NCBI GenBank assembly: GCA_963969365.1
Contig: OZ017751.1
Span: 372,001-436,000 of the forward strand
Origin: Asterochloris sp. CNOR1
Taxonomy: Eukaryota > Chlorophyta > Trebouxiophyceae > Trebouxiales > Trebouxiaceae
DNA: 64,000 nucleotides
Direction: 5' to 3'
Shown: positions 115 through 62,200 of the stretch, piece by piece
Layout of the letters: each line of letters opens with the position of its first letter
Position numbering within the stretch: position 1 is the stretch's first letter
The notes under the pieces: model-generated
Told to the model about the DNA's origin: nothing
Database searches by the model: none
The model's input: the letters and a program-made list of their open reading frames with translations, nothing else
Translations under genes and position numbers: made by a program

Positions 115-3100
115 TGCACACTGGGCCTAGTCAGCTGGACCAGGCACTGGCAGCAGAGGGCGGCAGGTCACCCAAGGCCTCCCAGGCAGGGCTGTCAGCT
201 GCCAGCACGCCCGGCGCACACCTGGGCCACTCCAAGTATGAGGTTGCACAGGTAATTTCAAACAGTGCCAGTGGTGTGATACTGGATGGAGAGGCTTCTT
301 GCAGGAATCGTCAAGCAGGGATCAGCCCTCCTCTTTGCAGCTCATTGCTCTGGCGCATGCGCTGCCGGAGGGGGCCCCCGCTGCAGCAGGTGTTGATTCC
401 CGAGGGGTCTGTTTCCATGGCAATGCCGTTTGAAATTAGGATGTCAGCGTACATGGATTTACTGTGGTCCCTCACATCAGTCTCCATTCCTCCTTCTGGC
501 ATATTCATCTGTGCTGGCTGCCATGCCAAGTACCCGCCTGGCATAAGCACAATGCAAACTCTCAACCCCAATTGCTGCATTGTTCCCGAGGCAGAGCAGG
601 CAGGGGCAACCACATTCATGGGGGCATAATCAAGCTGCTGCCTCAGCCTCTGGATTTGGTCTCCACAGGTGGAGTGGACCTCTGAAGACTCTGAGAGTGT
701 GGTGGTGGCCCGAGTGCACAGGGCCAGCGTGAACCCAGAGCTCGTCAATGAGTATGTGCATGTCCGCATCAGCTCCATTGGCCTGGACAGCCCTGGGCGG
801 GGCATCATCAAGGCCTCTGCGCCCCTAAACGAGGTGGAGTTGGAGCTGCAGGTGGGCCCTGCTCAGAGCCCTGGTGCTGGGGTTGGTCCCAATCCGCGCC
901 GAGAGCGTACTGGTGTTTGTGTGGGGTATCAACCTCTGTAGCCTGCTACTGTCCGTTCTATGGCCTGTCTTTGGCCTCGCTGTGTAGGAAAGCTGGCTCA
1001 TGGCATCATGGCCTCTGCATCCTTGAGTGAGGCCTCCAGGTGGAGGTGGGCGCTAGCCTGTAAGTGGCTTTCTGTCTGGCCAGTCGCTCAGCCCATGTCA
1101 ATTCAGAAACACAGCGCAAGGCCGGCAGAAGCCCTGTGCCCGTCGCCTGCCACATTGCCGGCATGCCCACTTCACCTGGACAGCGCGGCGCCGCAAATCC
1201 CGCAGGACTCCTGAGAGCAGTTGGCTTTGGGGACCCTGCAGGTGGAGCAGACACCTCCACAGCTGCGCCGCATTGAATTTGCCCGCAAGGCCAGCTCTGG
1301 GGCAGTGGCAGGCAGCTTGCTGGAGAGCCTACTGGATGCCTGTGACCTGGAGGGCGTCACCAGGCTAAGGCAAGTGGGCCTCACATGCGTGCACAGCTCG
1401 CTGAGTGTCCCAGAACTTCCTTGCTGCCAGCTGCCAGAGTGAGACTAAACTTGCAGGCACCTTTGTTCAGCTGCCTGTCTTCAGGGCAGGAGGGAAGCAT
1501 TCAGCATTGAAAGCTGCTGACGGCCTGCTGAAACAAGAGGGGTTGCTGGGCATCAGCCCATCAGCTTGTGCACCGTGTCTGCACGATGCTAGTCTGCTGC
1601 TTGGCATGATGGCAGCGCCTTGAATGATGTGCAGCTCCCTGGAGCAGCTCACTCTGCCCTCTCCATTGTTGGCCTGACCCCTTATACTGCCGTGCTATGG
1701 GCTGCAGAAGTGTCTAAAGCTTGCTCCAGTGCATGTGCAGGTGCGATGAGGGGATGACGGCCATCTGGGGTGGATCACTATGCCCTCGCCTGATTGAGCT
1801 GCGGCTGCTCAACCTGGCGCACTGTGCCATCCCCAGCCTTCCTGCAGAGGCGAGTCGCACTGATGAGGGTTTACATGCCTCTTGAGGAGGGTGTGATGCC
1901 TCTGGCCTGCCATAGACAGCAGGTGGCTGGGGGCTGCCTGCGCCTGATTGAGCTGTGGCTGCCCCAAGCTTCCACGCTGCGGCACCTTCAGCCTGCCTGC
2001 AGAGGTGAGCAACATGACACAAGCCCTGATGTGTGATCCTTGGAGTCTCAGGCTGGCACATCAGGCAAGGTGCATGCAGCATGCAGAAAGTGACCTGCCT
2101 GATGCAGGCGGCGACACACATCTGCAGGTGTCAAGGCGGCGTGCTGCACAGCAGCTGCCGGTCCTGCTCTTGCTGCCACTGCAGTCTTCCCGGCTTGCCT
2201 TGAAGGAGCCTAGCAGCAGCACTCAAGTGTCTGCTGGTGCCCCAGGTGCGCCAGAGCTAGCAGGCACTGTCAACTTAACATCCTGTAGCCCGTGGCAGTT
2301 GTGTATGTAGGTGCCTGACAGCCTGATGGCGCAGCTGCAGCTGGCACCGTCAAGCATGCTGCCGTGGAGCTGAACCCAGCACCCCTGATATGCAGGCCTT
2401 GGCAACGCTGACCAACCTTCAGGAGCTGCGGCTGAGCGACAACAGGCTCATTCAGCTGCCCAAGGAGATTGGGCAGCTGGTGGAGCTGAGGCGCCTGGTT
2501 GCTGACAACAACCAGTTGACCTCGCTGCCAGGTGCGCCGCCTCTGTTGAAGGATAGAGGCTGTGCGTGTGTCCCTCTGAATAGCTCTTGCCTGCAGCACA
2601 GCTCCTGTACATGCACCCTCACAAACCTTTGTTTCACCTGGTCTATGCGGAGCTGTGTTTGCGCTTCCTGCAACAGAGCCACATCAGAGTGTCACAATGC
2701 CCTGTGCCTGAGCTGTCCCAATCATGCCCCTTAACGTGACGTGCAGTGAGGATGCCTATGAGCAAAGGGGCCATGCCTGTCAAAGGTCTTGTTGCCGCCC
2801 TGCAGTGGAGCTGCGCCAGTGCACTGCCCTCCGAGAGGTGTCTCTGGAGTCCAACCGCCTGACCACCCCTGTGATGGACCTGCGTGCTCTTTCGCGCCTG
2901 CAGTCCCTGCAGCTGTTTGGCAACCCCCTGGACTTCCTGCCAGAGCTGTCCCCCTGCACAGACCTGCGGCACCTGTCCTTAGCAAATGTGCGCATCTCAG
3001 CAGATGCCTACTTCAGCAGGTGGGTGGGTTTTGGCTTGATCTCAGGGTTGCACAGCACCAGCATGCTCCTCAAGCTTTGGACCTGCTGCTGAAGCGGCTA

Positions 3101-6100
3101 CTTGTTGCCGGCATTGATCTAATCTTCAGCAGGCGCCCATTTCAGCAGGTAGGCGTGCTTTGGCTGTGTGGGTGTACATGAGCATAGATGCACTCTGGAT
3201 AAACCAGAGTGCTGCATGGGCTATGGACCTGCTGCTGAACGTTTCTCTGCTCAAACCTGCACCACCTGCTGCTGACCTCCGTGTCTTGTGGTTTGTGCTC
3301 GTGAAGGCGAGAGCATTGCATGGCAGCTTCTGGCATGCAAGCCAGAAGCAGTAGGCTCTTTAGAGCTCTTCCCCTGCACAAAGCTGTGGCTGGCTAATGT
3401 GACAGCTCGGTATTGTCCTGGCGCAAAATTCAAGTGAGACAATTGCAGCTTGGGCACTGCACGTCTGCAATTGGCAGCGGCTCGTTGCATGGTGCAGGTG
3501 GGAGGTGCAAGTGCTGCCGGCATCCTACATCTCCCGCACCAACAAGCTGGCGCAGCTCTTTGCCCTGATCTTCCGCCGCAGCAGCTGCCAGCAGCCACTG
3601 CTGGCTGGCGCTCTGGGTGGGGCAGCTTGGGCCCTTGCTTGTGTATCCCGCCACGGCAGTAGCAGCCACTGTTGAGACTGCCTGCATGACTGGGTGTGAT
3701 GCCCAAAAAGGGATTTGCCATCCTCACATGCTGCTTTGGGTTGATGGACCAAGGCCGGCTTGACAATGGCACCCTGCTGCTGCAGAAAGCAAAGTACACG
3801 AGCGCATTTTGTCTGTCAGGATGGTTGCATCATTGCTACAGAAAGCTGGTTGTGGTGCAGACCACCACTCACTGCCTGCAGGGCGCATTGCTGAGGATCC
3901 AGCCAACTGCGCTGCCATCGCGCAAGAAGTGGGCGCAATCCAGCAGCTGATCTTGATGGCCCTCAGTGACAATGAGGTCGTTGTTCAACAGGCCTGCAAG
4001 GTCATAGGTGTGCCTGTCTTTACAGTGTCTTGAGTTCAATAATGCTGGCCATTGCCTTCCTTTGAGGCTACCATGCGGCTGAGGACTGCTATGCAGCTGC
4101 TTGGGGTTTGGCACTGATCAACGTGTGGTACTGTGGCTCTCAATGTGTGATTGCACTGTGATGCTGATTGCTTTGACCCCTCACTCATGTCTGCTGTCAA
4201 GTAGGTCTGTTGCCTGCTGCCGCTCTGCCTGTCTCCGTGCCCACTGACATTGACCTCTGCGTTTGTAGGGCTGCTGGGCCGCCACAACTCCATCACAACC
4301 AATGAGATCATTGCGGGGGACGTCGTGTCAGCCATGCTGTCCCTGATCTGTAGCCACAAGCACAAGAGTCAACTGGCGGGGCTGCAGGTGCTGGGCAGCC
4401 TGGCCTTCATGTCAGACAAGGCGGCCGAGAAGCTGCTCACCCCCAGGCTGCAGGCCGCGCTTGAGGTAGGCGCTTGGGTCGCTTGGTCACCTGCTGCTCC
4501 AATGTCGGGCTGCAGTCCTGAGCCGTCGGGATCTGCACTGAAGCTGCCCGTGGTGACTCGATGCGCTGGAGCCCCATCACCTCAGCTGGCCGCCCTGCAG
4601 GGCCAGGAAGGTGCTCACCCCTGCGCTTTGTAGCTGATTGTAACCTAGACCGCCAACGTCAATCGTGCCTGCAGACCCGTCTGCGCAGGGAACATTGTAC
4701 TACACTGAAGCCTGGGAGTGCTGCACGTTTTGACTTTTGCAAGCTGCGCCCAGCCTCATTGGGCCTCACAGAAAGCAATCAAGTGTCCCAGAGATGCTGG
4801 GCCCTTCCAAGCCCGATGTAGTCAAGTGAGTCCTGCCCCTGGATGTATGACCTGAAGCACCCAAGACCCCTCAACAATGCTGGACCCTGCCTGCAGGAGC
4901 TGATCCGCAGCGGGCCAGATGACGTGAAATGCTGCGCCCTGGAGACAGTGGGCAACCTCGCCTTTCCCCCTGACAACCGCTCCAAGTTCCTGGCAGCGCC
5001 TGCCTTCCATGAACTGCTGTGCCGCATGGCTGGCCGCGGCGTGGGCTTGGTGCAGCAGCGTGTGTGCACTGCAGCGATTAGGGCGCTGGCTATTCTAGGT
5101 GAGCTGGCTAGGCTTTGAAGGCACAAGGACACAGAGGATGCACTGCTGGAAGGCACTGCTATGCCAGAGCTGGGTTGAGGAGAGGGGAAGGGGAAGGGAA
5201 AGGGGTGGTATCGTATCATGCCTCACGTTGGGCAGGGCATGGGTTTGCTGCAGCAGCGCGTGTGCACTGTAGCCATTGATGCGTCAGCCACCCTGTTTAC
5301 CACCAGCTGCAGGCCCAGACCTCATACGAGGTGGTTGTTAGGGGGGCATTGAAGGGCAAGGGATGTGTCATTACCCACTCGTAGGTCTTCAAGAAGCTGG
5401 GCCTCCAGGGCTTGAGATAGCAACACACCGCAGCTATATAGCGGGTGCTGGCCGTCCTGAAATGCTGACCGGGTACACTAGGCCAGAGATTTCAGGATCA
5501 CTGAGGGTGCACTGATGGGAGACATCGCTGTGCTGCATGGCTGGCCGTGGCATAGACCTGCTTCAGCGCATGTGCCACTGCAGCACAGCATATAAAGTGA
5601 GTATGTTGGGCGCAGAGAGCTAAAGTATTACTGCTGGGAGGCACTGCAGTGTGTCAGTGCTGGCCACAGCACGTGGTTGGTGCAGCAAAGTGTACGCACT
5701 GCAGCCATCAGACATAGATGTGCAAACCCAGGGTCTGGCGACTCTAACCCCATGCCTGAAGCCACATGTGTGAAAGACTTCTTAGAATGCAAGTTGGTTG
5801 TCAAAGATCCTTCTCCTGTAGATTTGCCATTGACAACTGCAATTGGTATGGGCTTGCGGCTGACAGTCGCTGCTTGTTGCTTCGCAAGGCAACATGGCAC
5901 GCTCAGCGTTGTGAAGAAGGCAGGCAGCTGAGGGTCAACATCTGACTGCTGTCACAAGCCAGAGTGACCTGCGCTGCAGGCAAAAACGATGATGTCAGGG
6001 AGTCGCTCAGCAAGCCGCCAATATCAGGCAGGGGCATTCGCGTTTTGTCAATGGACGGGGGAGGCATGAAGGTAGTTTGATTTCAGCAGCAGCCACACTG

Positions 6101-9100
6101 ACCCACTGACCGACTTGCAAGCTGAGGCTGCTGGGCTTGCAGAGGCATCGCACTTGCAGCCTGTGACTTGGTGCCTTCTTGTGAGCTCGCACTGGGGCCA
6201 TGGCCTTGAGGCACGCCTTTTCTTTCCCCGCCACCTGGCTCCTTCATGCCCATGGTGCTCATGGCCAGCAATCCTGGATGGGTCTTCAATATAGAGGGAT
6301 GCTGGCAACACAAAGGCCCACTTGAAGGTTACGCAGCCACATGTGCACCCTGCTAGGCTCTGCCCTGTAAGGCACTTTCAGCACCAATGTCTGCACAGTC
6401 ACAGCACAGTAGAATAGCTGGGGCAGAGCGCAGCAGAAGAGCTGAAGGAGAGCGCAGTAAAAGAGCTGGGGCAGAGCGCAGCCAAAGCTCAGCCAGCTGA
6501 TGCACCACCCCATTGTATGCAGGGCATTGCCACCATTCGCATGCTGAGGCAGCTGGAGCAGCGCACTGGCAAGCCCATCAGGGAGCTGTTCGACCTGGTG
6601 TGTGGGACGTCCACCGGCGGCATCCTGGCTGTGGCACTCTCCCTGCAGCAACTTACGCTGGACGACTGTGAGGACATCTACAGGTGGCACACCTCTGCTC
6701 TGCATGGCCAATAGGGGAACCTGACAGCCTTGTGCTGAACTCCTCTTCATGTGCAAAAAAACATTTTGGCTAGTGGCACCGTGAGCTTGGGGCATGTCCC
6801 TTTTTTCCAACCTTGTCCCCGGCAGCCACAAAAGCCTGTCGAGATGCTGGTTGAAGCTTTTAGGATTGCTGCCAGTCTTGAGCTGGTCTGTCTGTGCTGA
6901 GGTAGGCACCTTGGGGACTGTGCATCCCTCCAAGGCTTTGACAGCAGGCACCGAGGGCTAGTGCACAAGCTGATTGAGGGCTGTTGAGATGATCCCACCC
7001 TTTGGCAACTCCCTTTGTGATGTGGCATAAACCAGGGTATATGTGTACTCATGCAAGCTTGTGATGGGAGTCGCAGAGGGCTGATAGGAAGGCTGCTTGA
7101 GGGCTGCTGAGAGAATGTCACCCTTTGGCAACACCCTCTGTGCTGAGGGGGAATCTGTATTTTTTAAAGCTTGTGGTGGGAGTCATAGAGGCCTGCTCCG
7201 GGAGCTATCTGAGAAATGATGGGTTACTGCCACCATTTGGCCACTCCCCCTGTGCTGCTGCAGGAACCTTGGGCAGAGGGTGTTCTCCAAACCAGTAACA
7301 GCGGAGACAGAGGGCTGGCGGGAGAGTCTATATCGCGTGTACAAGAGCGGGCAGCAAAGCATGCGGGTGGCGGTCTATGGCTGCAAGCACGACGCAGTGC
7401 TGTTTGAGCTGCTGCTGCAGCAGTACTGCCACTTCATTGACCGGGGGGCGCTGGGGGACACCATGATTGACACAGCCTCACTGGGCTGCCCCAAGGTGAG
7501 CCTTCTCTGGCCAGCCCTGCTGCTGCTTTGATGGGCTGCCCCAAGGTGAGCCTTCTCTGGCCAGCCCTGCTGCTGTTCTGATGGGCTGTCCCAAGGTGAG
7601 CCTTCTCTGGCCAGCCCTGCTGCTGTTCTGATGGGCTGTCCCAAGGTGAGCCTTCTCTGGCCAGCCCTGCTGCTGCTTGGATGCTCATGTCAGTTGGATG
7701 GGTTTGTCAGTGCTGTGGGATGAGCGGGCAGGACATGGGTGCCATCTGCTTGACACAGCTTCCCTCCCGGATGACGCAAAGTGAGTCTTCCTGGCCAGCC
7801 TGCTGCTGAGGTGTCATGTGACTGCCAGATCTGCAAAAGGTGAATTATATGTTGCTAGATGCCATGCCCGACTCAGTCTCCCAGAGAAAGGCACTCGAAG
7901 GTGAGTGATCTCCTGCAGCTCCTCCCCTGCAGCAAGCCCATGTGATGAATGCACAGCGTGACGCGCCAGCGATCATGTAGCTAAGGCAAAAGCTGCTCGC
8001 CCTCTGGGTACTCATATCGCATTGCTGGAGTGCGTCAACCTGATCCAGGTCAATGTCGCACAGCCTGGTACCACCTCAATACCTTTTAGCAGCCATTAAC
8101 GACATGATTGGTGCCCCTGGTGCAGTGCTTTGTGGTGGCAACCTGGGCTAGCATGGCCCCCGCGGAGCCCTTCCTATTCAGAAACTACGAGTACAGCCAT
8201 GAGGCAGCTCAGCCTGCAGACCACCACCCTACCAACGATGAAGCCTACCTGTACCAATGCAAAGGCAGCAGTAAGCACCTGGTATGGCAGGCGGTGCGGG
8301 CTTCCTCTGCGGCCCCATACTACTTGGCAGACTTCACGTGCGGGCCTGACACGTGAGCCTCGTCTGCTACATCCTGGCTTTGCCTTTGATGGCTGCCATC
8401 TGAGCTGGCTCAACATGCTGCACCAACGTGAACCTGTCATGACCAGCAGAAAGGCATTGCGTTGCTCATGAGTGGTGCAAAAAACGACGTCCCAAACGGC
8501 TTTGCAGCCGCCCAAATTAAGCTATGCCTCAACAGTGCCTGCAGGTCTCTGGATGGATGGCACCGCCACGGCACACGACCCCTCTCATTCTCCTACCAGG
8601 CATGGCTGCATCAAGACGGCTCCCACTCAGACTGCCCATTGGCTGGCCTGCAGGTTTCAGGACGGTGCTGCCACCGCCAACAATCCCTCAGGCATCGCCC
8701 TGGCAGAGGCGGCTCGGCTGTGGCCAGACGTCCCAGTGGAGTGTCTCATCTCCCTAGGGTCAGGCTCCGTGCCTGTCAAGCCGCGAGAAAAGTCTATGTC
8801 AGCTTACCTGGACACAGGTGAGCCACATTGGCTGACATATCTCCAACTTGGTGGCCTTTGAAAGAAGTCATCGGGATACTTCCCTGGACACGGCAAGCAT
8901 GTGCCAAGGAAGTCTTTGTGACAATGCAGTCAGCAGCATTCTACGTCTACTGAAAGCAGGCACCGGCAACATCATGTCAGCTCAAATGGGGAGCAGACCT
9001 GCACCCGAGCCCTCGCCCATACACATGAGCTTTAGTAAAGCAAGGTTTCAAATTCTGGTAGAGCTGACTCAGCCCTCTGCGAGGTTGCATATCTGATCAT

Positions 9101-12100
9101 CAGTGTTGAGATGTGGGCCTTGAGCACCTGCATGCGCAACTGGTGATGGCAAGCGTGCTGGCCTGGACAGCGTCAGCCTTTGGTCTTGGAATTCCTCAGG
9201 CTGTTATGGAGCTCTGTCCTGGGGCCTTCATTCCATCTGAATCTCACACGATGCTGCCTATGGTGTGCATGTTCTGCCCTGAACTGCATGTCTCAGGCTA
9301 CCTGAGCTGCAGCAGCATATGGCTCCTGCTTGCGAGTGCCCGTCACGCTGCCACACTACATAACTCTGTGTTTGGTCATGTTGCAGGCAGCGTGCTCATA
9401 GAGTCTGCCTGCAACGTGGAGCGCGTTGCGGCCCTTCTCTGCACGCTGGCCCCCCAGATTCCGGGTTTCAAGTACTTCAGGTAAGCTGTGTGTGCCACTC
9501 ACAGGAGGCACCAGCCTGTGCCTGGGGTGATTCACTCCAGCATCATTGCAGCCACAAATTTACCTGCCAGCTTCACTATCAAGACCATGCGGCTGCAATT
9601 TGCACTCATTTGAAAAGGGTAGAACTTGCAGCTGCCTGTGCTCATGCGCCCCAGCAGCCTCTCAGGTGTCCAGCAAATAGGAAATCAGTTTGTTGTACCA
9701 CCCCAGAACCTACCGTGAGCCCAGCCAACGTGTTTGTAGGCCAGTTATATTGTGCATTCTGCTGCAGGTCCAAGGCTTGACACTTGCCCTGGGGAATGCC
9801 TTAGGACGAGATCAGCCTTATCTGCCTACAGGCTTACGACACCTAGGGGACGCAGCACCCTGGTAAGCAACCAATGACCCACCATCTGCAGATTCAACCC
9901 TCTGGACGTGCGCTGCGGCATTCAGCTGGACGAGATCGACCCGGCGCAGTGGGCCCTGCTCGAGGCGGCCACAGATGACTACATCCTCAGCATTGACGGC
10001 AAATTCCAGGAAGCTGCAGAGGTGCTGCTCAGCGCGGCACCCACAGAAGCAGCGCTGCCTGCTCTGCCATTCAGAACGCCTGGTGAGGACCTGCTGCAGC
10101 TCAGGTTCAGAGAGTATCCCATCGAAAACGGGTCATGGAATGGCTAATCTACTGAACGAGGGTTACCAAGGGCAACAGACCGTGCAGACATGGGCGCCCA
10201 CCAGAGCAGCACCACCTGAAATGCTGCTCAGGTGCCTCATGAGCCCCTGCTGCAGTAGCCTCGCAGGAGAAGCCTGAGCAAGCAAGGTAGATGAAAAAGA
10301 CAACAAGTTGCTCTGCTGCACCAGTGACGTCTCCAGACGAGCAGCGCAGCCTGCAATGCCGCTCAGGGAGGGTTGTCAGCATTTGCAAAGTGCTTACACC
10401 GGCTGAGGGGCTTGGCTGCTGTTGCGTTGGCCTGTCTGCCAGTATCAAGCTCAGCTGAACGTAGCCATCCGCGACAGTCACATGCTGCTGTTGTGCACTG
10501 TTTATCTGGCAGCAGCACATATGCACTGCACTCCGGGCCCCTTGAGGTCTTTGAGTGTGCTTGAGCACTTCATGATGACAGCTGTACGCTCTCTGCGTTG
10601 TGCAGCATGTCCCTGTTGCTCCTGAATCACTTCACCAGTACCCCGTCTGTTTGCCCCCATACAGGCGGCAATCTGGACATGCTGCTGGTCACTTGCTCAG
10701 CCCCCTGGCCGCATGGCCCAGACCCTGTGGCGGCCGCATGCCAGCAGCAGCCGCAGTGCCGGGTGACAGAGCTGCACCAGGCACTAGAAGAAGGGGAGGA
10801 CCCCGTCGAGGTGAGCTACGATCTGGCACAAAAGCAGCTTAGTGTTAAGCTTCTGCACAGCGTCCGGCTGTTCTGTGGCAATGCTTGTTGTCGCGCCAAC
10901 AGTGTTGGTGCCAGGTCACTGCAGCAGGGCAGCTTGAAGGAGAGAGCATCCTGTAGACCATTATGAAGACAATTGGCATGCCCCGCCGACAATTCGTGGC
11001 AAGCTGGAGTTGAGGGGCATCTTGTGCATCAGCCACCCACCGTGCTCCAGAATATGCCAGGAGGGCCTGGTAGCAGTCCACACCTGGCACAGTCTTGCAG
11101 GCAGAAGGCTTGCCGTGGCACCGCCTGCACCTGGGCAGTCCATCATGCTGCTCTTCCTGCTGCCTGCAGGGCCTGGCTCGACTGCTGCAGCCACAGGATG
11201 AGGCAGTGGACTTTGGACTGGTCCATTTTGCACTGCAGCTGTCGGGTGATGGCTTGGTGCTCCGGTGGGAGCAGGAGCTGCAGGCCATCATCGAACCAGG
11301 TGCAGTAAAAGAACCGGCCCAATGAATCGTTCGATGAGGTGTTCTAAGAGTTGGCAGGGACTGGCTGATGCAACAATTACTCTGACCTTTCCAGGATGAG
11401 GATGGCAGCCTCAGTATGGCCAGGTGCAATCATGTGGGGCATGTCTGTCGCTCAATTGCGGAGTGGCGCTGACTGTCAGGTATCAGCCCAGTCGCCAACC
11501 ATGTGGCACTTGGTGCAGGGCCTCAGGCTCTGGAGTGGATGCAGCAGGCAGGGGCTGACCCAGAAAGTCAGCAGGTGGCCAGCCTGTTTTCACAAGGCAG
11601 CCTGCTCCACACAAAGGTCAGCCCTGCTTGACCTGCATTTATCATTAGAGCTGTGGCCTTTGGTGGCTCTGCCTGTGGGCACATTCATGTGCCTTTGTAG
11701 CCTCCCTCGTGCAGAACTTGCGGCCAGGTGACTCTATGCACGCGGGTAGATGCCCTGCTGAACACGGTGCCGGGTATGGTTCTGACCTGCTGGGATTGCT
11801 GCTGGGTGCATTGTCTTGGCAACAGGTCCTCAAGGCGCTCCAGCGGCAGCAGCAGGCTTTTTGCGTGCAGGTTGGGCAGATGCACCTCCTGAGCAGCCAG
11901 ACAAGTGCCCTGAATGGCCAGCTGGTGTCTTCGCATCTTGTGCAGAAGACCACGCCGGCCGCCTTCCTGACTGCCGAGCAGGTGAGACTCTAGATCACGC
12001 AAACCATCCTTGCGCATGGAGGCATGTGACCCACAGCTGAAGGCCTGCTGGTTGAGTAGCCACATGTAACTGTTGGCCCCTGGTACTGAACTCAAAGGGT

Positions 12101-48424: not shown

Positions 48425-51400
48425 ATGGCGGCCAACATGATGCACAGCCAGCAGTGCAAGAGCCTGCCCATTGCAGGCCTGCACATCCGCCAATTCTCGG
48501 GGATGAGGGCAAGCACCTCAGCCCCTGCCGCACCTCACGCCCAGAGGCTGGTGCAGCGCTCTCAGAGCCGCAAGGGTCGGAGCTGCAGGCGATCTGCAGT
48601 CCTGGTGCAGGCCCTCAAAGATGGAGCAATGCTGGACAGGAAGCTGCGTGTGGGGGTCATTGGGGGAGGCCCTGCTGGCGCCTGCACAGCAGACACCCTG
48701 GCCAAGGCTGGCATTGAGACCTACCTCATCGAGCGCAAGCTGGACAACTGTAAGGTGTGAACAAAATATCTACAGGCGCGCTGTGGCAGCTAGATTGCAT
48801 GAGACACATGCAGCACTGCCCTGCTCTGCATGGGAATCATTGTGCACATCCTGGCAGCTCTTTTGTGGGGTTTGCTCCTGCAGCACGTGTGTCACCATCT
48901 GTCAAGCACTGCCCCTCCTCACCCTTTGAGCAAAAGGCTGGAGCGGTCTGCACTGCCATCAATCAGATCTCTGCAGACTCTTGGGTCCCTGCTGTGCAGC
49001 CATGCGGTGGCGCCATCCCCCTGTGCATGATTGACGAGTTTGATCTGCCAGCAGACATCATTGATAGGAAGGTCACCAAGATGAAGATGATCTCCCCCTC
49101 CAACAGGTGAGCTGCAAAGCTCCATTCGTCTGCGCTGCAGCTGCATGCCTGCAGAATGAGTGCTGTTGGATGTCTGCCTCATCTGCAAGCATTGCAGACT
49201 GTTATGTCCTGTATGCTCATCGGTTTGTGTAGCTTGTTTGCACCTCTCTTACTTGTCTCAGCACAATCTGGTCCCTGAGCACAGTTCAGCTGATGAGCTT
49301 GGTCTCTGTGCAAGCCTCCAGCAAGTGCGGCGCTGGGCCCTGTGCAGAACGGTCAACTCTGCTCGGGCTGCGGCCCAGCCCTATTTGCCTGCTAGCGCAC
49401 CTGTGTAGGCAGCTGCTCAGGGGCTTCTGTGTGCCTTGACTGCTTCTCACGACCCAGCAGCTCTCATCAAAGCTTGGCAAACAGGTGGACGTTGAGGGCA
49501 ACAGGACTCTGCATCAGCTGTCTCTTACGGGCTCTGCCCAGTCCTCTTGTCCAGAGCCTGACCAGACTTTTGTGAGTCTCCTGCAGATGTAGACGTTGGC
49601 ACTGCATCCACCTGTTTGCAGACCTAGCAGACTTTTGGGAACCTGCTGCAGGGAGGTGGACGTCGGCAGGACGCTGAGCGAGACAGAGTACATTGGCATG
49701 TGCCGGCGGGAGGTGCTGGACAACTATCTGAGGCAGCGCGCTGAAAAGAACGGGGCTACCGTCATCAACGGCCTCCTCATGCGCATGCAGCAGCCAGAAG
49801 TGAGCACTCCTGCTGTTTGGGGGTGGACAGAGACTGTGGCCCCTTGATGCAGCCGCCAGATGTGGCATTTCGCATCCCAGAGACGTCCCTGCCTTGATGT
49901 CAGGGCCAGGGCTGACAAGACTGCGAGTCAGATGCAGCTGCCAGACTTGAACACTGATGTCACAGGCTGTGCCCCTTTTTGGGGCGGACCTGTTTTTCTG
50001 CCGCCGAGCTGTGTGGGGCTGCCTGGGGGCCGGCCTGTTTGTAGCTGACGCTGCTCTACTCTCCTGCCTGCAGGGCTCAGAGGGCCACTATGTCCTGGAG
50101 TTCAACAACTACACCGAGGGCGGCAAGGTCGGCAAGCCTGACAAGCTTGAGGTGAGCCGGCGCAGCAGCAGTTCAAGTGGGCAGGCAAGGGACGCTGCCT
50201 GACTGGTCCCCGTTCTTTCTTCACTGGCGGCCGCACCAGCCAGTTGTTGAGCTGCGTGCTCCACTGCAACTGGCAGTCCAGGGCTGAGACCTCCACCCAT
50301 GGTGGAGCTGTGGCACATGGCCACTGACAGCTGCATCCCTGGTATGAGATTCTGCAAATCATGCCCAATATTCTGGCAGGGCCTGTGTTCCTCTGGCATC
50401 TGGGACACCACACAGCTGCTGCCCTGTGATGCTGCAATGCTGCATAGCGTCCTGGCTGTTAAGACAGTTCCAAATGCAGTCTCATGCGGCGCCTGCAGGT
50501 GGACATTGTAATTGGCGCCGATGGTGCCAACAGCCGCGTCGCCAAGGAGATTGACGCCGGCGACTATGACTATGCCATCGCCTTCCAGGTGCAGCAGAGG
50601 GATGTTTTGACAGTCATGCCTGCCTGGCGGCTCTGGCATGCTGCAGCAGACATCCTGGTGCTGACGTGCCGGCGTCCGATGTTGAGGAACTGGCAGGCCT
50701 GCTCCAGGAGCTCTGCCAGCGCTTGCTTTGCCTTGGCCTCCAGGCCCGCTGCTGCCTCTTCAGTTGCTTTGTCATTGAGCAAGGTGCACATGCAATGGCA
50801 CAGAAATGAGCGAGCACTGGCTGCCCGTCACCCCTGCCCGTCACCACTGCAGAAGCGCATCCATACCCCAGGAGTGGAGCAGGACACTTGCCCAACTCCC
50901 TGCATGAGCCCAGCGCATCCCGACCGGCCTCACACCTGTGTCATAACCCTCTCTGGACCCCATCCTGTGCCCCTGCAGGAGCGCATCCGCATCCCCGACG
51001 ACAAGATGGACTACTACAAGGACCTCGCAGAGATGTATGTGGGCGACGATGTGTCCCCTGACTTCTATGGCTGGGTGTTCCCCAAGTACGACCATGTGGC
51101 TGTGGGCACTGGGACTGTGGTCAACAAAAGCCAGATCAAGCAGTACCAGCAGGCTACCCGCGACCGCAGCAAGGTGGGCCCCGGTGTCGCAGCCCTTTCT
51201 GTTCTGAGAGCAGTCTGTGCTGTCTGATGCTGAGCACACTGTGTCAGATCGCCTCCTGAGAAGGTGGTTGGGCGACCTGTGCACACAACAGGAACATGCC
51301 TGTCTACTCAGCCCTCTGCTGATGCCAGCCTGAGCTGGGCTGGAGGCCTGTCGGCCCCAAGATGCAGTGGCAGACACTTTTCACGGCTACGCTTGCTAAC

Positions 51401-52913
51401 CCTGTGCACAAATTGTGCTGTCGCACTGCCAGCAGAGCCTCTCTTGATTGCCCTGGACTGACTGCACTCCTTTGCATGACCGCCTGTGGCCAGCGCCTAC
51501 ATGACCGAAACACATCTTTGACCTTTCATGCCTCACACTGCAGGTCAAAACTGAGGGTGGCAAGATCATTCGCGTGGAGGCCCACCCCATCCCCGAGCAC
51601 CCCCGTCCCCGCCGTGTCAAGGGCCGCGCAGCCTTGGTGGGCGACGCCGCCGGCTACGTGACGAAGTGCAGTGGGGAGGGCATATACTTTGCTGCCAAGT
51701 CAGGGCGCATGGCGGCTGAGGCTATTGCTGAGGCCTCCCAGCAGGTGGGGTCAGAGGCATGCTGTGGCATGGCTTTGGCATTGCTGCAGCCCCTCCCTGA
51801 ACAGGTTTGTGGCAATGGCGGCAGTACTGCAGACCTACCTGTGCAGCCTGTGTGATCGGTTTGGAATTAGAATAGTTGCCGTTGCCCCTCCCTGCACATA
51901 GCTTGCGTGATTTTGTTGCCACAGATGTGTAAGCCGCTGGCCAACTTTGCACACAGTCTGTGCAATTGAGGTGTTTGCTGGTGCTGCGGCTGGTGCTTCA
52001 CGAAAGGAGTGCTCTCTGCAGCCTCCTGGCCAGATCCTGCAGCTGCGGTGGTCGCTGTACGGCACTGCTCGGCCGTCTAGCAGTGAGCAGGGCGCCTATG
52101 TCGCTCGTCCAGCATGCTTTGCGCCTCTCTGCCTGGAAGCTCAGAAGCAGTCAGCTCAGGGGTCTCCCTGCTCCTGCTGCAGGGGCAGCGCATGGTGGGC
52201 GAGAAGGACCTGAGGGTGTACCTGGACAAGTTTGACCGCAAGTACTGGGCCACGTACAAGGTGCTGGACATCCTGCAGAAGGTCTTCTACAGGTGAGGCA
52301 AAGCAGAGTGCAGGCGCACAAGGTGCTGTGGGGCAGGACGATGCTAATTGAGCAGAGCAGCCAGCCTGCAGCTCACGTGTTGTGGGATGTGATGTGCATG
52401 AGTGAGGTAATAGTGTCCCTGCACAGTGAGCAGGAACAACTGTGTGGGGCAGCCTGGGCAGCGTGCACAGGGCAGGAAGCTGTATGGGCAGGTCTGAGGG
52501 CAGTGTGGCCCGGCATGCCAAGCAGCAGTCTGAAGACCTTCCATCTTGTTGGGCCCTGTCAAAAGCTGTGCTCGCAACTGGTGATCTGCCATCCAGCACT
52601 GAAGCGCGGTCTCAAGCTGCGGCACATGTCCAGCAGCACACAAAAAAGCTGGACCTGATCAACAGTTGCTGCTTGCAGGTCCAACCCTGCTCGGGAAGCC
52701 TTTGTGGAGATGTGCAAGTCAGACTATGTGCAGAAGATGACCTTCGACTCCTACCTGTACAAGACTGTGGTGCCTGGCAACCCTCTGGACGATGCCAAGC
52801 TGGCCATTCAGACCATCGGCAGCCTGCTTAGAGGCAACGCGCTCAGGCAAAATGCCAAGGGTGTCTCCTTTGGCAGCCGCCAGGCAGAGCAGAAGGCACC
52901 TGCAGCCGTCTAG
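48425..52913 (+). CDS. chlP: Geranylgeranyl diphosphate / geranylgeranyl-chlorophyll reductase, plastid
   Basis: Flavoprotein that reduces the geranylgeranyl chain to phytyl for chlorophyll, tocopherol and phylloquinone. Exons: 48425-48754, 49000-49106, 49652-49799, 50074-50151, 50499-50588, 50979-51173, 51544-51744, 52183-52292, 52679-52913. They total 1494 nt (497 aa) with all phases consistent. Residues 1 to about 70 form a basic Ser/Ala-rich chloroplast transit peptide. The FAD dinucleotide fold follows, with GGGPAG at residues 80-85. Further landmarks are NCKPCGGAIPLCMIDEFDLP (split by intron 1), IGADGANSRVAKEIDAGDYD, DDVSPDFYGWVFPK, EAHPIPEHPRPRR, ALVGDAAGYVTKCSGEGIY and VQKMTFDSYLYK. 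Length and order match the plant enzyme. It is head-to-head with another probable plastid gene and convergent with the MCPH1-like gene. Confidence 0.97.
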
Positions 52914-53220
52914 GCTAGAGATCTGCAGGTGTTATACATGGGCCCTTGTCCATTTGGTCACCCAGTTTGGCTTGCAAGGGCCGTCCAGGGAGCTTTTCCT
53001 GTCTTTGCAGTTGTGCCTCACTGAGACAGATGCCGGTGACCCTCATGCTTTCTTCAGTTAGCGTATGGGTGCTTCTGATTCAACTGCTGGCCACACCACC
53101 AGATTGCTGGTGTCCCCCATGAGCATTGCCATAAGCATTTATGGCGCCCTGTTGCACCTCCCCTGTAGCCACGTGTTCCTTCCTCAAATATCGAGACAGC
53201 AGCTCTTTAAACGCTCCTGA

Positions 53221-53225
53221 TGTAA
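53221..53225 (+). terminator. chlP: UGUAA polyadenylation signal of chlP
   Basis: TGTAA lies 308 bp after the chlP stop codon and only about 30 bp before the stop codon of the convergent MCPH1-like gene (53254). The two 3' UTRs therefore probably overlap. Confidence 0.6.
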
Positions 53226-53253
53226 ATGAAGTGACATACGACAGTTGGACATC

Positions 53254-56200
53254 TTAGGTCTCCAAGCTTGAGGGCAGCTTGTACTTCTCAGCCGCTTGCA
53301 GCAGCCAGTCTTCTCTCACGATCTTAGCAGATGATGCCGCCACAGGTGGGTCATCCTTCCCACATACCACACAGATGGTGCACTGCCGTGCACCAACTAC
53401 CTGCACCAGAACAGCACTTCATGACCAGATAGAGCTGCTGCCAGGCAGCCCCTGGCTGCCAGCTATGGACTTGCAGCCCACTGTGCATGTATCACAGTGC
53501 AGGGCCCTGGGCAACATATCCCAGTCAGCATAACAGCACAGCACACCTTGCCGCCAAAGGCTGCCACCAGCCGCCGCAGGTCAGCTGCAGACGGGCCGTC
53601 CTTCTGGGTGCCAGCCTGGTGCACATGAATCTTGTGCCCGGCCAGAAGCGGCGGCTGTTTGCGCTGCTGGCTGCACCTAGCTGCCTTGGCGGCAGCAGTG
53701 AAATGCATCTGCAAGCATGGGCAGAAGTCTTGCCGGCACAGTAAAAACGTGACATTGAGTCTCACCAGCGTTGCCTTGTAATGCAGCCAAAGCACCAGAG
53801 TGCAGCCATGGCTCAGCATCAGCAGGGACACAAGGCAGCCTGCCAAGCTAAACAACCGAGCAGGCCCCCACTTTGGGCACAAGACAATGCGATGCCAGGA
53901 GAACAGCCCTGCAGCATTCTCAGATAACAGCCAGCAGCACCCCTGGCAGTCAGGCCAGCAGCCTGCAGCTCGACAACTGGGAAAGGGGGGCACCGGCGGT
54001 GCAATACCTTGGCCCAGAAGGGCTGCTCCGGCAGCCAGGCCCCCGCCTGCAGCGAGGCCGCCAGCCACTCTGGCTGCAGCAGGAAGGCCCCGGCAGCGAT
54101 GGCCAGAAGGACCTTCAGAGTTCGGCGCTCCTGCCCCACCACGAGGTGCGTAATGCGGCCCTCTTCTGCCCCGGGGGGCACCAGCCTCAGCCCGCGCAGC
54201 TGCTTGGCAGCCTTCTGCGCCAAACGCAGCACAGCTGGGTCCGCTGCAGGCAGCACAGGCACAATCTGGCAGCTGACCAGCTGTGCATGGTCTTGGCCGC
54301 ACAAGCAGCGCCAGCAACGCCTGTGCAGCAGTGGCTTGCAGCACAGCACGCTCCGCTGTTCACATGGTCGTGGAACGCGCCGCGGGCGGCAGCAAAGCCT
54401 GCGCAGCGTAAAGTTGAAGCAAAGCAGGCTCTGCTGCAGTCAGTGTAGACGCACTCAGATAGCCAGGCGGAAAAGGCTCTGCCACCAGGTGCTCCAGACA
54501 TTGCAGCCTAGCAGAAAGTGCTGAGGATGCTTCAAGGTTGGCGGCAGCTTGCAGACAGGCCCCCACAAAGTGAGGTGCATGCTGGCAGTGTGGAATAGCA
54601 GACGGGCACCTTGAGGCGCGCCTGTTTCAAAGCCTGACAGGGGTACAACACGAAGTGACATGCTGCAGCCGGCTTGTGCATGCTGCTGTTGCACCTGAAG
54701 TCACCGCCAGTCCGCCAGAGGTGGGCCCTGTCTGAGCTGAGGCAGAAGGCGGCAGCCCAGCATCTGCCAGTGCAGCTGCTGCCGGCTCATCAGGCTCAAC
54801 TGCTGCATCACCCGCATCTGCTGCTTCGGGCTCATCTGCAGGCCCCTCCGCCTCTCTCCCCTCTGCCTCTGAGCAGGACTTGTTCCGGCTGACAGCTGGT
54901 GCCAACTCCTGTTGGGGCTGCACATTCTGGCGTGTCCCTTGCCGCCTGAGGGCCCCTGCCTGCATCTGCTGCTGCCCTGCACGCTCCTGCTCAGAGCTGC
55001 CCGGCTGCTGCACAGCTGGTGGTAGTGGCCCCTTTCTCGTCTGCTGCTGCACATCAGGTGCAGCCCTCTCCCTTGCCTGCTGCTGCACTGGCACAGGCCC
55101 TGAGGCTGCCTGCGGGCGGCCCTGGGCTGCGAGGTATGCTGCCCTGTCAGCTACATGCCCCGCTGTGGCACGAGTTGCACGAGCATCCCAAGTCCGAGGC
55201 TGCAAACACACAAACGACTGTTGCTGAGCCTGATGGCACCAGGAATCGGGCCTGAGGACTCTCAGGCTTAGTGCAGGAGAAAGACAATTTGACTGTCACT
55301 TCATGCAGCAGCAAAGGGGCTGCAAACTTTCAAGCTCTCCTCTGGTGCGTGCTGCATGCTGCGTTTGTTCTGCCTGCCTCGCCTCAAGGCCTGCAGGGTG
55401 GCACACCTGGGACCACACATCTGGCTGGGAGGGCTCCCGGGCGGGCGGAGAGTTGGCTGCCCCGGGAGCACTGTCGTCAGCGCCTTGGGGGCCACGCCTC
55501 ACAGGCCCTAGAGACGACCTTGCTCTCTGCAGTGACCAGGAGTTGGCATCGGATGGCAGGACGTGGCAAATCCCAGGGAGACAAAGCACAGCATGCGGGA
55601 CCACAGGGACCGGCCACCGCCAAGCTGATGTGAGCTGGGCAGCACAATGTCAAGGTGCCCCCGGCCTGTGGCATGTGGGCAGGACTTGCAAGCGCCACCC
55701 TGGCAGGGATCAGTCATGACACGCGAGGTGCAAGCCGGCAGGTGCCCACTCTGGCAAGGAATGCAGACATGCGGCCGCCTGCAGCCTCACCGGAGCCGTG
55801 CCCCGCCTGTCCCCTGCAGCGGCACTGGCGGGGGTGCCCACAGACAGGCGCTGGAGTCCCCTGCCAGAGCCCAACTCGGCAGCTGCTGGTGTGAGGGCAG
55901 CCCAGAGGGATGGCACCCTCGTGAATCCGGGCACTGGCACAACGGCAGCGCCCCTGCAGGACAGACTGCTTATCTGAGCGCGAAACCCCTTGTGGGGGGC
56001 ACAGAGCTGGTCAACCTTTCTGGAAAGGTCAAAGCAAATTGCTGCATCTACAGCTCATGAAGTGTTGGGGCACGTGGCCCAAAGGCAATGGCTTCCCTTG
56101 CTGTGCAGATGCATCACGTCACGTGCAGAGGGTAGCACAACTGACATGGCCCATGACCCTAAAGTTCCCAGCCCCTCCTGGAAGTCAAGTCCTGACCCCA

Positions 56201-59200
56201 GTCATGTGCGGCCCCCTGCCAGACAGCTGCCTCAGGTGGCACCAGTGCAGCCCCCGCGCTCAGCCAAAAAGGGACCCTGCACCAGATGCGTGGCAGCCCC
56301 CACACGGGGCTAGCATGCACAGTGCTCGCCTGCCTGACAGGCCTGCACCCCAACCCTGCCTCCCGCAGTCACTCCTGTCGGGCAGCCACGAGCGGCGTGA
56401 GGTGCCAGGACTGCCGAACAGCTGATGCAACACAGCACCACCTGCTTGGCAGGCGACACAGCTGTCTGCCAGGCAGGCCCTCAGTCCTTGCATGTTGGCC
56501 CTGCCATGCTCCCCTGACTCAACGCTGTCAGGCACATGCCTCAGAGCGGCGAGCATGCTGGTCCCGCATGCAGCCATTTGAGCCACCTGCTTGGCAGTCC
56601 CCATACCCTAAGCACGCACAATGTAGAAGGAAATTATCACCCTACAGTTGAATTGGTATGGTGTGCGTTTCTCATGTCCATACACCAGCTGCCTGGAGAT
56701 CCTCGATCACCAAATCTGAGCGCCTGGTGCTGACTGTGGTCACACTCATGCACTCACCCCTGCAAGGCAGGAGCTGCCTCCGGCGGTGTGGGTGCCAGCC
56801 CCTCTGGGGTTGCTTTCTCCAGGGGCAGCTTCTCCTCGACGTGCTGCTTCAGGTTGCGCACAGAGAAGCGGGCGCTGGCCCCAGGCAAGGCAGGCGGCGC
56901 CCTCACACGCGCCATCCGGACCTGCAGGCACCGGGCCTTCTTGGCACGACGTGGCGCTGATGCGTATGGCTGAGCACTGCCAAGCCCAAGCCTCTAAATG
57001 CTGCATCTGGGCCTGCAAGCACTGATCTTCCAAGAGCTTGCTTTAGACATGAAGCACGTGGCTGAGTACTGCCAAGCCCAACTCCGTACATGTGCGTCTG
57101 CACCTGCAGGTGCTGGGTCCTTACAGCATGACTTGCACAGTTGCACAGGGTCATGTGCATGTCTGAGAGGCCCATGCCCTTGGGACGCTGCGTCCTCATC
57201 TGCAGGCACCCCAAAACATCCATCATGTGGATAGCTGCAGGCAGAGGCGGCTAAATCCTCAGAGCCTGACTTGGACAGCTGCTGCCCTGGGCTGCGCTCA
57301 TTGGACTGGTGGGGCTGCAGAGCACGATGTTGGCAGCTGAGCTGGGTGCTGGGCATGGCTGAGTGCTGCAAGGCATAAGCGGTGCAGGCATGTGCAACTG
57401 GGCTTCCCTTTTTGAAAATGCAGCTTTGACCTGTGGCCAGACAGCCACTACGCCGCTGGCTGCACTAAATCAGTGCAGGGATGGCTGACTACCTGCAGGA
57501 CAGCCCCGCTCCCATCCAGTTTTGCCTGCTGGTCACTTGGCCCTTGAACGCCCGCTGGATCAGCAGCCCCTGAGTTTGTGCCCTCCCCTGCTGCCTGCTG
57601 TGCAGCCGGCCCCCTGCCAGCGGCAGCAGCCGTGCCACTGCGCGGCTGCACTGCGCCTGGCTGCTCTTGCAGTGCTTCCTCCTCGCCCACATCTGCAGCT
57701 GGCGCTGTCAGCCCAGCTGCTGCCGCTTTGCCTGGCTTGGCGCGGCTTCTCGTGGCTCTTGCTGGGCCATCACCGCTTGCCCCTGCCTCACCGCTGTTGA
57801 TGCTAGCAGCGAGTGCCTGCTGCCCAGTCTGGGCCCCTGAGGCAGCTGCATCTGCAGCGGCATGCCCTGCGCTGCCCCTACCCTGAGGAGCAGCACTAGC
57901 ACTGCTGCTGCTCATGCCGCTGCCCTCTGGCTCAGCACTGCCGCCTGCCGGTGCCATCCTGCTGCGTTTGGCAGGCCGCGGCCGCACAGCCAAGGCTTCT
58001 GACTTTGGCGTCTCAGCCTCAGCCCAGGAGCCTGCTGCTGCATGCTTTCCTGTTGTCTGGACCTGTCTACGTCCTGTGGATGCTGTCATCGCAGTTGAGT
58101 CTGCACAGGAGGTGCCACCAGGCTGCCGGCTGCGGCTGCGCATGCGTGTGCGCCCTGCAAGAGGACGCAGTAGGCCTCATGATCGCAGGCCATCCTGCAG
58201 ACTTAGGCGAGGCATAGTGTTGAGCCTTGCTGCGAGTCAGTCAGACAGTGTGCACTCAGCCCTCGTCAACCTTAGGATGAGGCATGGTGTTGCCCATAGC
58301 CTTGCCACAGGTCGATACAAGAGAGAGCGCTCTGCTCAGCTGTGCAGCTGCTGTGGAGCCGAACAGCATGTCCCCTGTCTACAGCCAAGCAGCACCTGCA
58401 GAGCTCTGACACCAGGTGTGCTGAAAGCCTCCCACAACCCTGAATATCAAGTGCTTCTGAACCACAGAACTCTTGGCAATTCTAGATGTATCATCTGTAC
58501 AACAGCTAATTGAAGTGCCGAAAAGCCTTCCTCATCCCTGAGCAAACTTGCCTGGTGCAATGACGACCCGCTTCAAGTCCATCAGCAGCTCAGCTGCTGC
58601 CTCTGGGGAGTCCGCAGGCAGCTCATCTATATCCACCTGCCCGCTGCCAGCCTTAGAGGCAGCCCCTGCAATGACACAGGAGATGTAAACATGCCGCTCT
58701 TGGCAGAAGCAGTAAGAGGCTCTGTGCCCCTGCAGCAGCACAGGTGGCTGAAAGAACCTGCTCAGAGTGGGCTCTGGGGGCAGCCTGTGCCATTGACTGG
58801 AAGAATGTGCTCCCTGCAGCCCCTGACCGCAGGCACTTGCCCCTGGGGCTGCGTTGCAGCCCTGAGAGGAGTTTGCATGGCACTGGTCCTCATGTCAAAG
58901 CCACACAGTCTGGCCCCTTGAGTGCCAGCTCCAGTAGCTGGTGAGCGGCATCCATGAAGACATGTCAAGCAGCACCTGGGCACAGCACAATGCCCTGTCA
59001 CTGAGCGCCTCAGATGCGATGCCAAGTGTCAGTGTGCAGCCCAGTTGTTGCTCCCCATCTGTCAGACATTGCGAAGGCCCAACATTTGATGGTCATGCCA
59101 TGTGTCTTAGGCAGGGGCCACCCTCAAGGCTCACCGCCCTTGCTTGCCCTCGCGGCAGCAGGGGCCTGCAGGCGCTGCCGAGCAATCGCAGCTGCAGCCC

Positions 59201-62200
59201 GCGAGCTGCAACGGGCAGGGGCTGTGCCGACGTGAGGGCTCTTGCATGCCTCTGCAGCAGCCTCTGCAGCAGCTGCTGGTGGCCCCAAAAGAACGACAGC
59301 ACCTCCTCCTGCTGGTGCTGCAGGCGCTCCGGAGCGCCTGCTGGCCTGCCGCGAGAAGGCTGCGGCGATCCCCTGCTGCTGCTTGGGGGCTGCTGCTGCC
59401 TGCAGGGTAGAATTTTGAGAGCTGGGCAGGCAACTTTCTGTTGCCAGGTTTGTGCACTGAGGGGTGTGTACAACCAGGCTTGGCCCCAATACAGGGGCAG
59501 TGCTAGGCTCACATGACACTGCTGGCTTTCCAGCGCACTGCACTGGCATCCTCGTCCAGCTAGAGGGGCCTCTTAGAGCCCCCATCACCAGCAGACTGAG
59601 TGCCCTCTCAGCTGTGCTGCTCACATGAGGGCCACAAAGGCTGGGTTGCCCTGACATGCACAGCAGCATGAGCAAACTGCCCTAAGTCAAAGGGTATTGG
59701 CATGTGTAATTGCAGTCTTGCTGTACCAGTGGCGCAAAGCAGACTGCCTGGGCTCGCACAGTGCCTTGAAGGCTGACACCCCATATGACCATCACACAGC
59801 AGCAAACTTCAGCCTGTTTGATGGCCCACCTTGGCCTGTAGAGGGCCCACTGCAACAGCCTTCTTCCGGACAGCTGCAGCAGCAGCTGGTGCTGGGGCGC
59901 GCCGCACGTAGTGTGTCACTGCCTGCTGCCCTGCTCGCCGTGGCTGCTTGGTAGGGCGGGGGCTGTCCACCTCTTGCCCTGCAGCACAGCAGGTGCTTCT
60001 CTCCTGTGGCTTCAGCCTTACTGAGGATGGACACCTTGTTGCCTGCAGCCGGCTTAGTGCCCAGTGCAGCGTCACTGTAATGAGCGGTCCTGTGGACACC
60101 TCTTCCCGTATGTCATGTGAAAGGCATCCAGTGAAGTCAATCGCAATGGAGTCACGATTGCTTTCAGTGCAGCTGCATCTGCAGCAGGCACACGCGGCCA
60201 GCAGCGGCACTGCAGCCACACACTACAGTGGAGCAGGCCCATGGCCTCTGCAACACTGCAAACATCACTGCTGCCGCATGCCCACCAGGCGCTCAGACTT
60301 TACAGCGTATGAGCAGCAGTCTCCTGCTGGACTCATTGCTCAGCTTTACATGCGGTGATTGGCAACAGTTCTGAAAACAGCTGCTCAGGCAGTGGCAGGG
60401 TACCAGATGTCCACCAAACCATACTAACAGGTTGGGTCCCCACCCAACAGACGCCCCTGTGTCAGAGGGCCATCTGCCCCATGGCTGCAAGTGGCTACAC
60501 AAGAAAGGACGTGCGTTCCTGTGTCCATTTGCTTTGACTAGCGCTGCACGCACCAGCGCCCTGCGCCTGGTCCTGCTCCTGAAGCAGCTGGGAGCTGCTG
60601 AACATGGCATCCGTGGTGTCCACCTCAAAGAGCTCGGGGGGCTTGGGCTGCATGGCTCTGTGGCTCCGCTTGCGCCCTGCACGACAGGGTGCAAGCAGGG
60701 CATGCGGGATGGCAATAGGATGCCTTCAGGAGGCGAGATGGATGTTACAGCGCCAAGGCCACTGCTGCAGATGAGCAGTCAAGGGCACGCCAACCCTGCA
60801 GATGCTGGGAGGGCTTCCTGACAATGCTTAAGGTACATGACAGAGCCCAAGTGTGGCCACGGATGTGCAGATGCTCTTGGGCTGTCCCACTTGGGGCAGC
60901 CAGAGCACAATGCAAGCAGGACTGCAGCAGTTTAACACCTTGCTTGACCCAGACAGAGGTCTAAGGTCTGCAACAGGTCTCACCAGAGGACCCTGGGGTG
61001 CCCGACTTGCGCCCACTGCCCAGTAGGCTGGCCTCCGATGGCTTGCTCAGCACAAATGTCTTCTCCTGCACGCAGGTAGCAGCTAATTTACTGTCTGAGT
61101 GTAGTTGGTTCAGATGTTGCACAACCCCTGACCAGTTGACTGCGGCAGCTGCACGCTGCGTGCTCACTCCCACAGGGCAGCCAGCAGGCAACGGGTTTTT
61201 ATGACCTGCAGCCAGGGCACGTGTTGCTTGACGTGGCTAGGAGCTGGGCTGGGGGACAATTGGGGGAGGCAGTGACTGCAGAGGCAGGCAGGGGCTGGGC
61301 TGCCACAGCGTCACCAGCTGTAGGTCCCTTGGCAGGGCAGCCAGCTGACAGGTTCCTGAAAGGCCTTGATGCCTTGAGGGCAGAAGGAAGTGAAGAGGCA
61401 GGCAGCAGCTGGGCTGCCGCAGCCTCACCATGGCTCTGCGCTGCTCAGCCGCCGAGCGCTCCACCCACAGGGGGCTCACCACCCAGATGTGAACTCCAGC
61501 CTGCGGCAGACAATCACTTTGGCGGGGAGTTGACGTGAGACCTAGCCAGGTTGGCATGGTCTGAAGGGCCTGCAAGCCTTCCAAGGCGGTCTGCACTGTA
61601 ATCGCTGCCAAAACCCTGCTGCACCATACCTTTAGATTCGCGGCTCCAGTGCTGGAGCCCTGCTGGGCGAAGGTCTAAGTGCTGGCAGCCAGCGCCGGCA
61701 AATTGCAGCTGTGCCTACATCTCGCCAGACATTAGGCGAGACCAGGCCGGGCCAACAGCATGTCCAGCTGCTTGTGCACCAGTTCCTGTCTCCCTCCCAG
61801 CTGGAAGTTGCGAGATGTTGCTTTTGTCACACGCAATGCCCGCAGCTGCACCTTATCAATGCTGTCACACAGCCCCCTCAGGCAAGCAGGCAACCCCTGC
61901 TGTGGCCCAGCAAGAAGCTGCAGACCTGGCCAGTGCGGGCGTGCCAGTCCTGGCCAAGCAGCAGACAGGCTACCAGGTCTCACAGCTGGCAGCTGCACCT
62001 TTCCAATCTTGTCGTACAATGCTCGCAGCTCAGCAGCCTCTGCCTCCCTCTGCTCTGCACCGGCAGTCTTGGCGTGCTTCTGGAAAATGATATGAGTCAC
62101 GTCTTTGCTGAAACGAGTGACCACTCTAGCTCCCAAAGCCTCCATCTTTGTGATCACTGCAGGAGGGTGACACAGACTTCAACAGTGCAATTGTGTTTGC

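Follow-up and report, generated by a model that had tools for sequence, protein, structure and literature searches.

Intron length change is usually attributed to transposons and small indels. A 64,000-nt stretch of the Asterochloris sp. CNOR1 genome (assembly GCA_963969365.1, contig OZ017751.1, forward-strand positions 372,001–436,000; hereafter the window) raises the question of whether introns can also grow by copying the exon edges that bound them. According to the original prediction, introns of a phospholipase, a coiled-coil, a galactosyltransferase-like, and an MCPH1-like gene contain decayed tandem copies of the flanking exon edge together with its splice site, here called exon-edge echoes. 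The clearest case in the window is the array at 7482–7683 (Table 1), in which neighboring copies are 96% identical and each carries CCAAG/GTGAGC (slash, splice junction); Tandem Repeats Finder (TRF) recovered it with a period of 50 and 97% matches. We find that exon-edge echoes are genuine and genome-wide, and that they probably derive from short tandem duplications that occur throughout genes and survive at splice edges since splicing uses the outer site.

We sampled the 56.4-Mb, 21-contig assembly as the window plus 250 kb drawn by place from 15 contigs (314 kb in all). Genes were modeled with a purpose-written gene-finding hidden Markov model self-trained on these sequences, and all exon and intron borders are therefore predicted ones. 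GC donors lie outside the model, and adjacent genes are sometimes fused (the coiled-coil and HPAT genes of the window form one model). The trained splice models are CTGCAG/G for acceptors and MAG/GTGAG for donors, and the sample holds 598 complete predicted introns with a median length of 285 bp. Pfam domains were found in 5/7 window proteins or part-proteins searched (LRR and patatin, HPAT and ShK, RRM, GGR, and BRCT) and no domain in the remaining 2/7. The splice models, together with genes such as those for geranylgeranyl reductase and the HPAT-family protein, would fit a chlorophyte alga. The gene first labeled galactosyltransferase-like is by its HPAT and ShK domains a member of the hydroxyproline O-arabinosyltransferase family instead.

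Echoes were sought by comparing the last 50 bases of each exon with its own downstream intron and the first 50 bases with its own upstream intron; reverse-complement probes, probes from the interior of exons of at least 120 bp, and the intron on the exon's opposite side served as controls. Sample-wide, strong donor-edge echoes are present in 36/345 tested introns and strong acceptor-edge echoes in 25/345, while reverse-complement probes gave strong matches in only 1/345 and 1/345 and interior probes are nearly without intronic copies (0/229 and 1/219). Likewise, own-side introns match in 37/318 and 27/318 cases versus 2/318 and 1/318 for opposite-side introns. At least one strong echo at either edge is found in 59/345 introns, and echoes occur in 22/38 gene models with a tested intron and on 12/15 sampled contigs, at a density that is unequal among sampled blocks (P = 0.00015). 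The predicted enrichment over controls and spread across many unrelated genes are thus borne out, and within the window itself exon-only probes gave strong matches for 8/74 donors and 4/74 acceptors versus 0/74 and 0/74 for reverse complements and 0/49 and 0/51 for exon interiors.

Could such matches reflect nothing but composition? With a high GC content and frequent CTGCAG acceptor motifs, CAG/CTG-rich stretches or repeated splice motifs might resemble one another by chance. However, nulls built from introns of other blocks, reverse complements, opposite introns, and 2-kb shifts all refute this explanation, as does the orientation of the copies: in a search for local pairs with periods up to 600 bp, the 314 kb contain 258 direct versus 8 inverted pairs at a score of at least 20 and 188 versus 0 at a score of at least 23. 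We regard the probability of chance similarity as negligible. Because the excess over introns of other blocks and opposite introns is local, mobile insertion is also unlikely; introners or transposons would place the same sequence at many unrelated loci, and the array at 7482–7677, the one element searched, occupies a single place in the genome.

As in small tandem duplication, the copies are direct and adjacent. Among the 16 pairs that are at least 85% identical with a score of at least 26, several have a length about equal to their period and lie head to tail, and others do not. The shortest period is 50–68 bp in every pair class, class medians are 123–170 bp, and the commonest start-to-start distances are 60–150 bp. 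Periods had been put at 50 to about 215 bp; the lower end stands, and the upper end is too low, with edge pairs reaching about 350 bp (5th–95th percentile 66–352). Copies that span a junction are about evenly divided between donors (44) and acceptors (42), and strong echoes sit close to the edge from which they derive (median distances of 128 and 131 nt, some positions being extrapolated).

Tandem exon duplication and alternative exons also leave exon-derived copies in introns, and the echoes could be such exons, still expressed or lately lost. Consistent with this, edges are predicted for each of the two copies in 14 pairs (e.g., L008:17352–18020 of the sample). In the echoes, however, only the edges are copied, exon interiors being almost without copies (the interior-probe counts above), and the spacing ignores the reading frame: periods are a multiple of 3 in 27/33 exon–exon pairs and in only 28/93 edge pairs and 19/53 intron pairs, the latter two near the one third given by chance. 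Judged by this frame test, the copies do not behave as expressed exons, and we consider that explanation very unlikely; the duplication of entire exons does not account for most echoes. Mismatches between exon and intron copies vary with codon position (0.224/0.224/0.304 for positions 1/2/3; P = 3e-9, chi-square test on columns that are not independent), which gives independent support that the predicted exon side is coding. At L008:17352–18020 (joined L008 + L009 coordinates), an exon–intron unit of about 270 bp is doubled, with exons predicted in both units and further decayed copies.

Introns with echoes are longer than those without (median 508 versus 305 bp; P = 9e-9), a difference that holds in 12/13 comparable blocks. 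This agrees with the proposal that duplication across exon edges makes introns already present longer and provides them with additional splice-like sites. The accompanying claim that each copy holds a donor or acceptor was partly right: among junction-spanning copies, taking one per edge, GT is present in 23/38 and AG in 28/37, and the rest have lost the site. Overall, 51/75 sites are retained where 44.3 are expected from neighboring dinucleotides (P = 0.06 for the excess), and these 75 copies give no sign that spare splice sites are purged. Selection against decoy sites, which lower counts (GT 12/36, AG 12/25) had appeared to indicate, was rejected: those counts rested on extrapolated positions, and the effect disappears with junction-spanning alignments.

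Existing introns need not have been the starting point, since echoes could be remnants of events in which AGGT-containing exonic DNA was tandemly duplicated and gave rise to a new intron (the Rogers model), events of the same class as edge duplication. One weak candidate is the intron at 56922–57103 (minus strand) of the BRCT gene, which is exactly 2 × 91 bp long and has CTGCAGGT at both junctions, although its donor–acceptor copy similarity reaches only P = 0.024. Against this origin, strong echoes sit nearer to the edge that is copied, and 520 introns show no clear excess of donor–acceptor similarity with the junctions in register (score of at least 28, 0 versus 0.16 expected; at least 24, 3 versus 1.96; at least 20, 11 versus 8.06). 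The missing junction-aligned signature, with 0/520 introns at a score of at least 28, largely refutes AGGT intron gain for the bulk of the echoes, as the original prediction had supposed, and therefore points to the lengthening of existing introns. As a general origin of echoes, intron birth is highly improbable.

We therefore favor a model in which frequent short tandem duplications would strike exons, introns, and intergenic DNA alike, leaving copies mostly 50–350 bp apart; 8.3% of all intron bases and 9.4% of all exon bases fall within recognizable local duplicates. If the duplicated segment includes a splice junction, the outer site (the first donor or the last acceptor) would stay in use, as the Pfam-supported gene models suggest, and therefore the protein would be unchanged and the extra exon edge and its splice site would become intron. 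The intron would gain one unit per event, sometimes repeatedly. The intronic copy would then drift, apparently freely because edge periods are out of frame, while the exon copy would be held by selection, and because it is so held an echo should remain recognizable for longer than a purely intronic duplication. By analogy with small tandem duplications elsewhere, the units may originate at staggered breaks that are filled in and then repaired by end-joining.

Several results weigh against this model. First, exon–exon pairs are similarly codon-periodic (mismatch 0.264/0.259/0.372), so periodicity alone is no proof of a free intronic copy, and we dropped it as such. Second, identity between copies is 0.77–0.83 in intron within 20 nt of the junction, 0.68–0.74 deeper in the intron, and 0.72–0.77 on the exon side; the higher identity of near-junction intron than of exon is the reverse of the simulated pattern. 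Constraint on splice flanks fits this near-junction similarity, though it was unpredicted. Third, local-pair identity ranges from about 60% to 97%, and only 5% of pairs are at least 90% identical versus 23–38% in steady-state simulations; young copies are therefore scarce, and the proposal of a continuous process finds no support in its original form. The duplication process is old and spread over time and not evidently constant; the scarcity might reflect an earlier peak of activity, the loss of repeats while still young, or assembly collapse. Finally, after clustering, 109/1218 edges have an echo versus 23 stand-alone internal clusters, a ratio of 4.74 (3.85 with exons of at least 60 bp and 3.00 with exons of at least 90 bp). 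The uniform simulation that best matches the observed identities gives 1.74/1.45/1.16, a 2.6–2.7-fold real excess, and since it underproduces edge echoes, uniformity may be wrong.

One possibility is that tandem duplications are preferentially formed or kept at exon–intron junctions, whether through a mutational hot spot or through selection for spare sites; edge duplication would then drive intron growth in its own right instead of being a by-product. When the annotation was displaced against the pairs (score of at least 20), edge–intron pairs numbered 93 versus 48.9 expected and intron-internal pairs 53 versus 93.9, with 0/300 shifts as extreme for either class. Simulations combining uniform duplication, purging in exons, constrained exons, and indels, with no boost at edges, gave cluster ratios of 0.86–1.86 at score 20 (at most 2.38 at score 23) and of 0.66–2.40 in a second series; adding constrained 20-nt splice flanks gave 0.79–2.63 in 7/8 settings. 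The real ratios thus compare with 0.66–2.63 in all but one unboosted simulation (score of at least 20), and a simulated edge boost of 4 or 8 yields 2.92 and 5.43. The frequent retention of AG and the slight overall excess of retained sites also favor a preference. However, the remaining untargeted setting, an old burst with many indels and constrained splice flanks, produced 5.40/5.10/2.34, albeit with a poorer identity match; the difference in probe coverage is small (12.2% for edges versus 8.6% for intron interiors; controls 1.0% and 0.2%); and the position of the junction inside the aligned unit is broad rather than fixed. Intron-internal pairs are no nearer to intron ends than chance (86.7 versus 91.7 nt, n = 44). 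Simulations that lacked flank constraint seemed to call for targeted edge duplication, but once such constraint was combined with an old burst, 1/8 settings could largely do without it, so that targeting is possible rather than required. Survivorship of exon-anchored pairs explains much of the excess, and any residual edge preference is model-dependent. We consider a preference for junctions doubtful, and it is to the same degree doubtful that introns of this lineage gain length chiefly from their splice sites outward, generating spare donors and acceptors in the process.

Tandem duplication is an established route of intron gain (PMC4974935 and PMC3443670, excerpts, with Gao & Lynch 2009 and Hellsten 2011 as cited therein). 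There, as here, local duplication supplies splice sites and splicing leaves the protein unchanged; that route makes a new intron, whereas the echoes would lengthen existing ones and lack the junction-aligned signature. In potato RdRp, an intron–exon unit was tandemly duplicated (PMC4974935, excerpt). That unit likewise spans an intron–exon junction, but its copy yielded a new intron and inserted exonic sequence, whereas the echo usually stays within the old intron. Small tandem duplications are described as the most frequent type of short insertion in human DNA and come from staggered-end fill-in, with a CST-Pol alpha-primase fill-in and end-joining mechanism demonstrated in human and mouse cells (PMC8355091, excerpt). 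Those copies are likewise short, direct, and head to tail; the mechanism was shown in cells, whereas here it would be read from decayed footprints mostly 50–350 bp apart. Among the papers listed in a limited literature search, none presents exon-edge echoes in its title or opening abstract as a way in which introns become longer. The class of tandem duplication is itself known, and within the bounds of that search the apparently new element is the genome-wide reading of exon-edge echoes as traces of past intron growth. A beta-tubulin pattern search of viral contigs for cross-species comparison gave three matches, none of them tubulin relatives. About one in six tested introns bears the mark of enlargement through edge duplication, and the conserved edge of the exon supplies a built-in reference. 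A single genome thereby suffices to measure how spare splice sites arise and decay and how often small tandem duplications occur in genes. Gene finders, for their part, are confronted with in-register decoys next to true splice sites.

Table 1. Exon-edge copies and related repeats in the window (positions count from the first base of the window)
Feature	Position	Strand	Basis
LRR-encoding segment 1781–1854 with 77% copy 1935–2009	1781–2009	+	alignment; exon model unreliable here
Donor echo, exon 2806–3019	3126–3165	+	80%, period 129
Decayed copies of the end of exon 4897–5098, LRR-patatin gene	5229–5708	+	alignment
Duplications of period ~122 in intron 6684–7263, echoing the acceptor edge at 7264	6822–7257	+	acceptor echo z 4.3
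Four head-to-tail 50-bp donor-edge copies of exon 7264–7495 (14 exon bases plus GTGAGC...)	7482–7683	+	TRF, alignment
Additional, older donor-edge copy of exon 7264–7495, contains GCAAAGTGAGTC	7747–7808	+	80% to 7464–7525
Donor echo, exon 9892–10082	10193–10255	+	69%, period 157
Edge echoes, coiled-coil gene	17676–19533	-	17676–17748/17854–17927, 18127–18192/18333–18398, 19055–19127/19177–19249, 19331–19382/19482–19533
Acceptor-edge echo, exon 26262–26403	26473–26585	-	66%, period 91
Donor echo, exon 32394–32882	32172–32232	-	75%, period 200
Acceptor echo, exon 32394–32882, CTGCAG kept	32919–33057	-	72%, period 116
Two consecutive period-77 acceptor echoes, exon 33748–33933	33991–34147	-	TRF run, alignment
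Donor echo, exon 35913–36094, GTAAGC kept	35779–35839	-	80%, period 102
Period-70 donor-echo array, exon 38737–38847	38504–38692	-	alignment
Period-91 repeat over both junctions, BRCT/MCPH1-like gene; third copy weak	56913–57115	-	alignment
Acceptor echo, exon 61206–61275	61374–61430	-	79%, period 114
Donor echo, exon 61999–62079	61842–61889	-	71%, period 147

Echoes in splice register are visible in the alignments of 32803–33057, 33914–34147, 35779–35939, 38504–38764, and 61260–61430. In the LRR-patatin gene, the decayed copies lie at 5229–5277 and 5527–5584, and 5661–5708 resembles 5229–5276; the acceptor edge at 7264 is echoed in the pairs 6863–6959 with 7221–7316 and 6913–7083 with 7148–7317. 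The claim for the BRCT/MCPH1-like gene held only in part: the strict exon-only test found echoes in 0/16 introns, and the alignments at 56913–57115, 61260–61430, and 61842–62036 score at least 20, the level at which the whole sample contains both the 258 direct and the 8 inverted pairs. Within 39135–54285 (RRM and geranylgeranyl-reductase genes) no local pair scores at least 20; two acceptor echoes nonetheless pass z > 4, and the tested introns of this region are of ordinary length (median 378).

In the LRR repeat at 1781–2009, the first copy ends in CTGCAGAG/GCGAGT and the second in CTGCAGAG/GTGAGC, and the copy at 1935–2009 may thus have a better splice site than the original segment. By eye, the LRR stretch at 1739–1854 (plus strand) ends in AG/GCGAGT, a possible GC donor, and its apparently frameshifted echo at 1935–2009 has AG/GTGAGC. 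Near the window end, at 63535–63563, lies a stretch of roughly 28 G that is interrupted once or twice.

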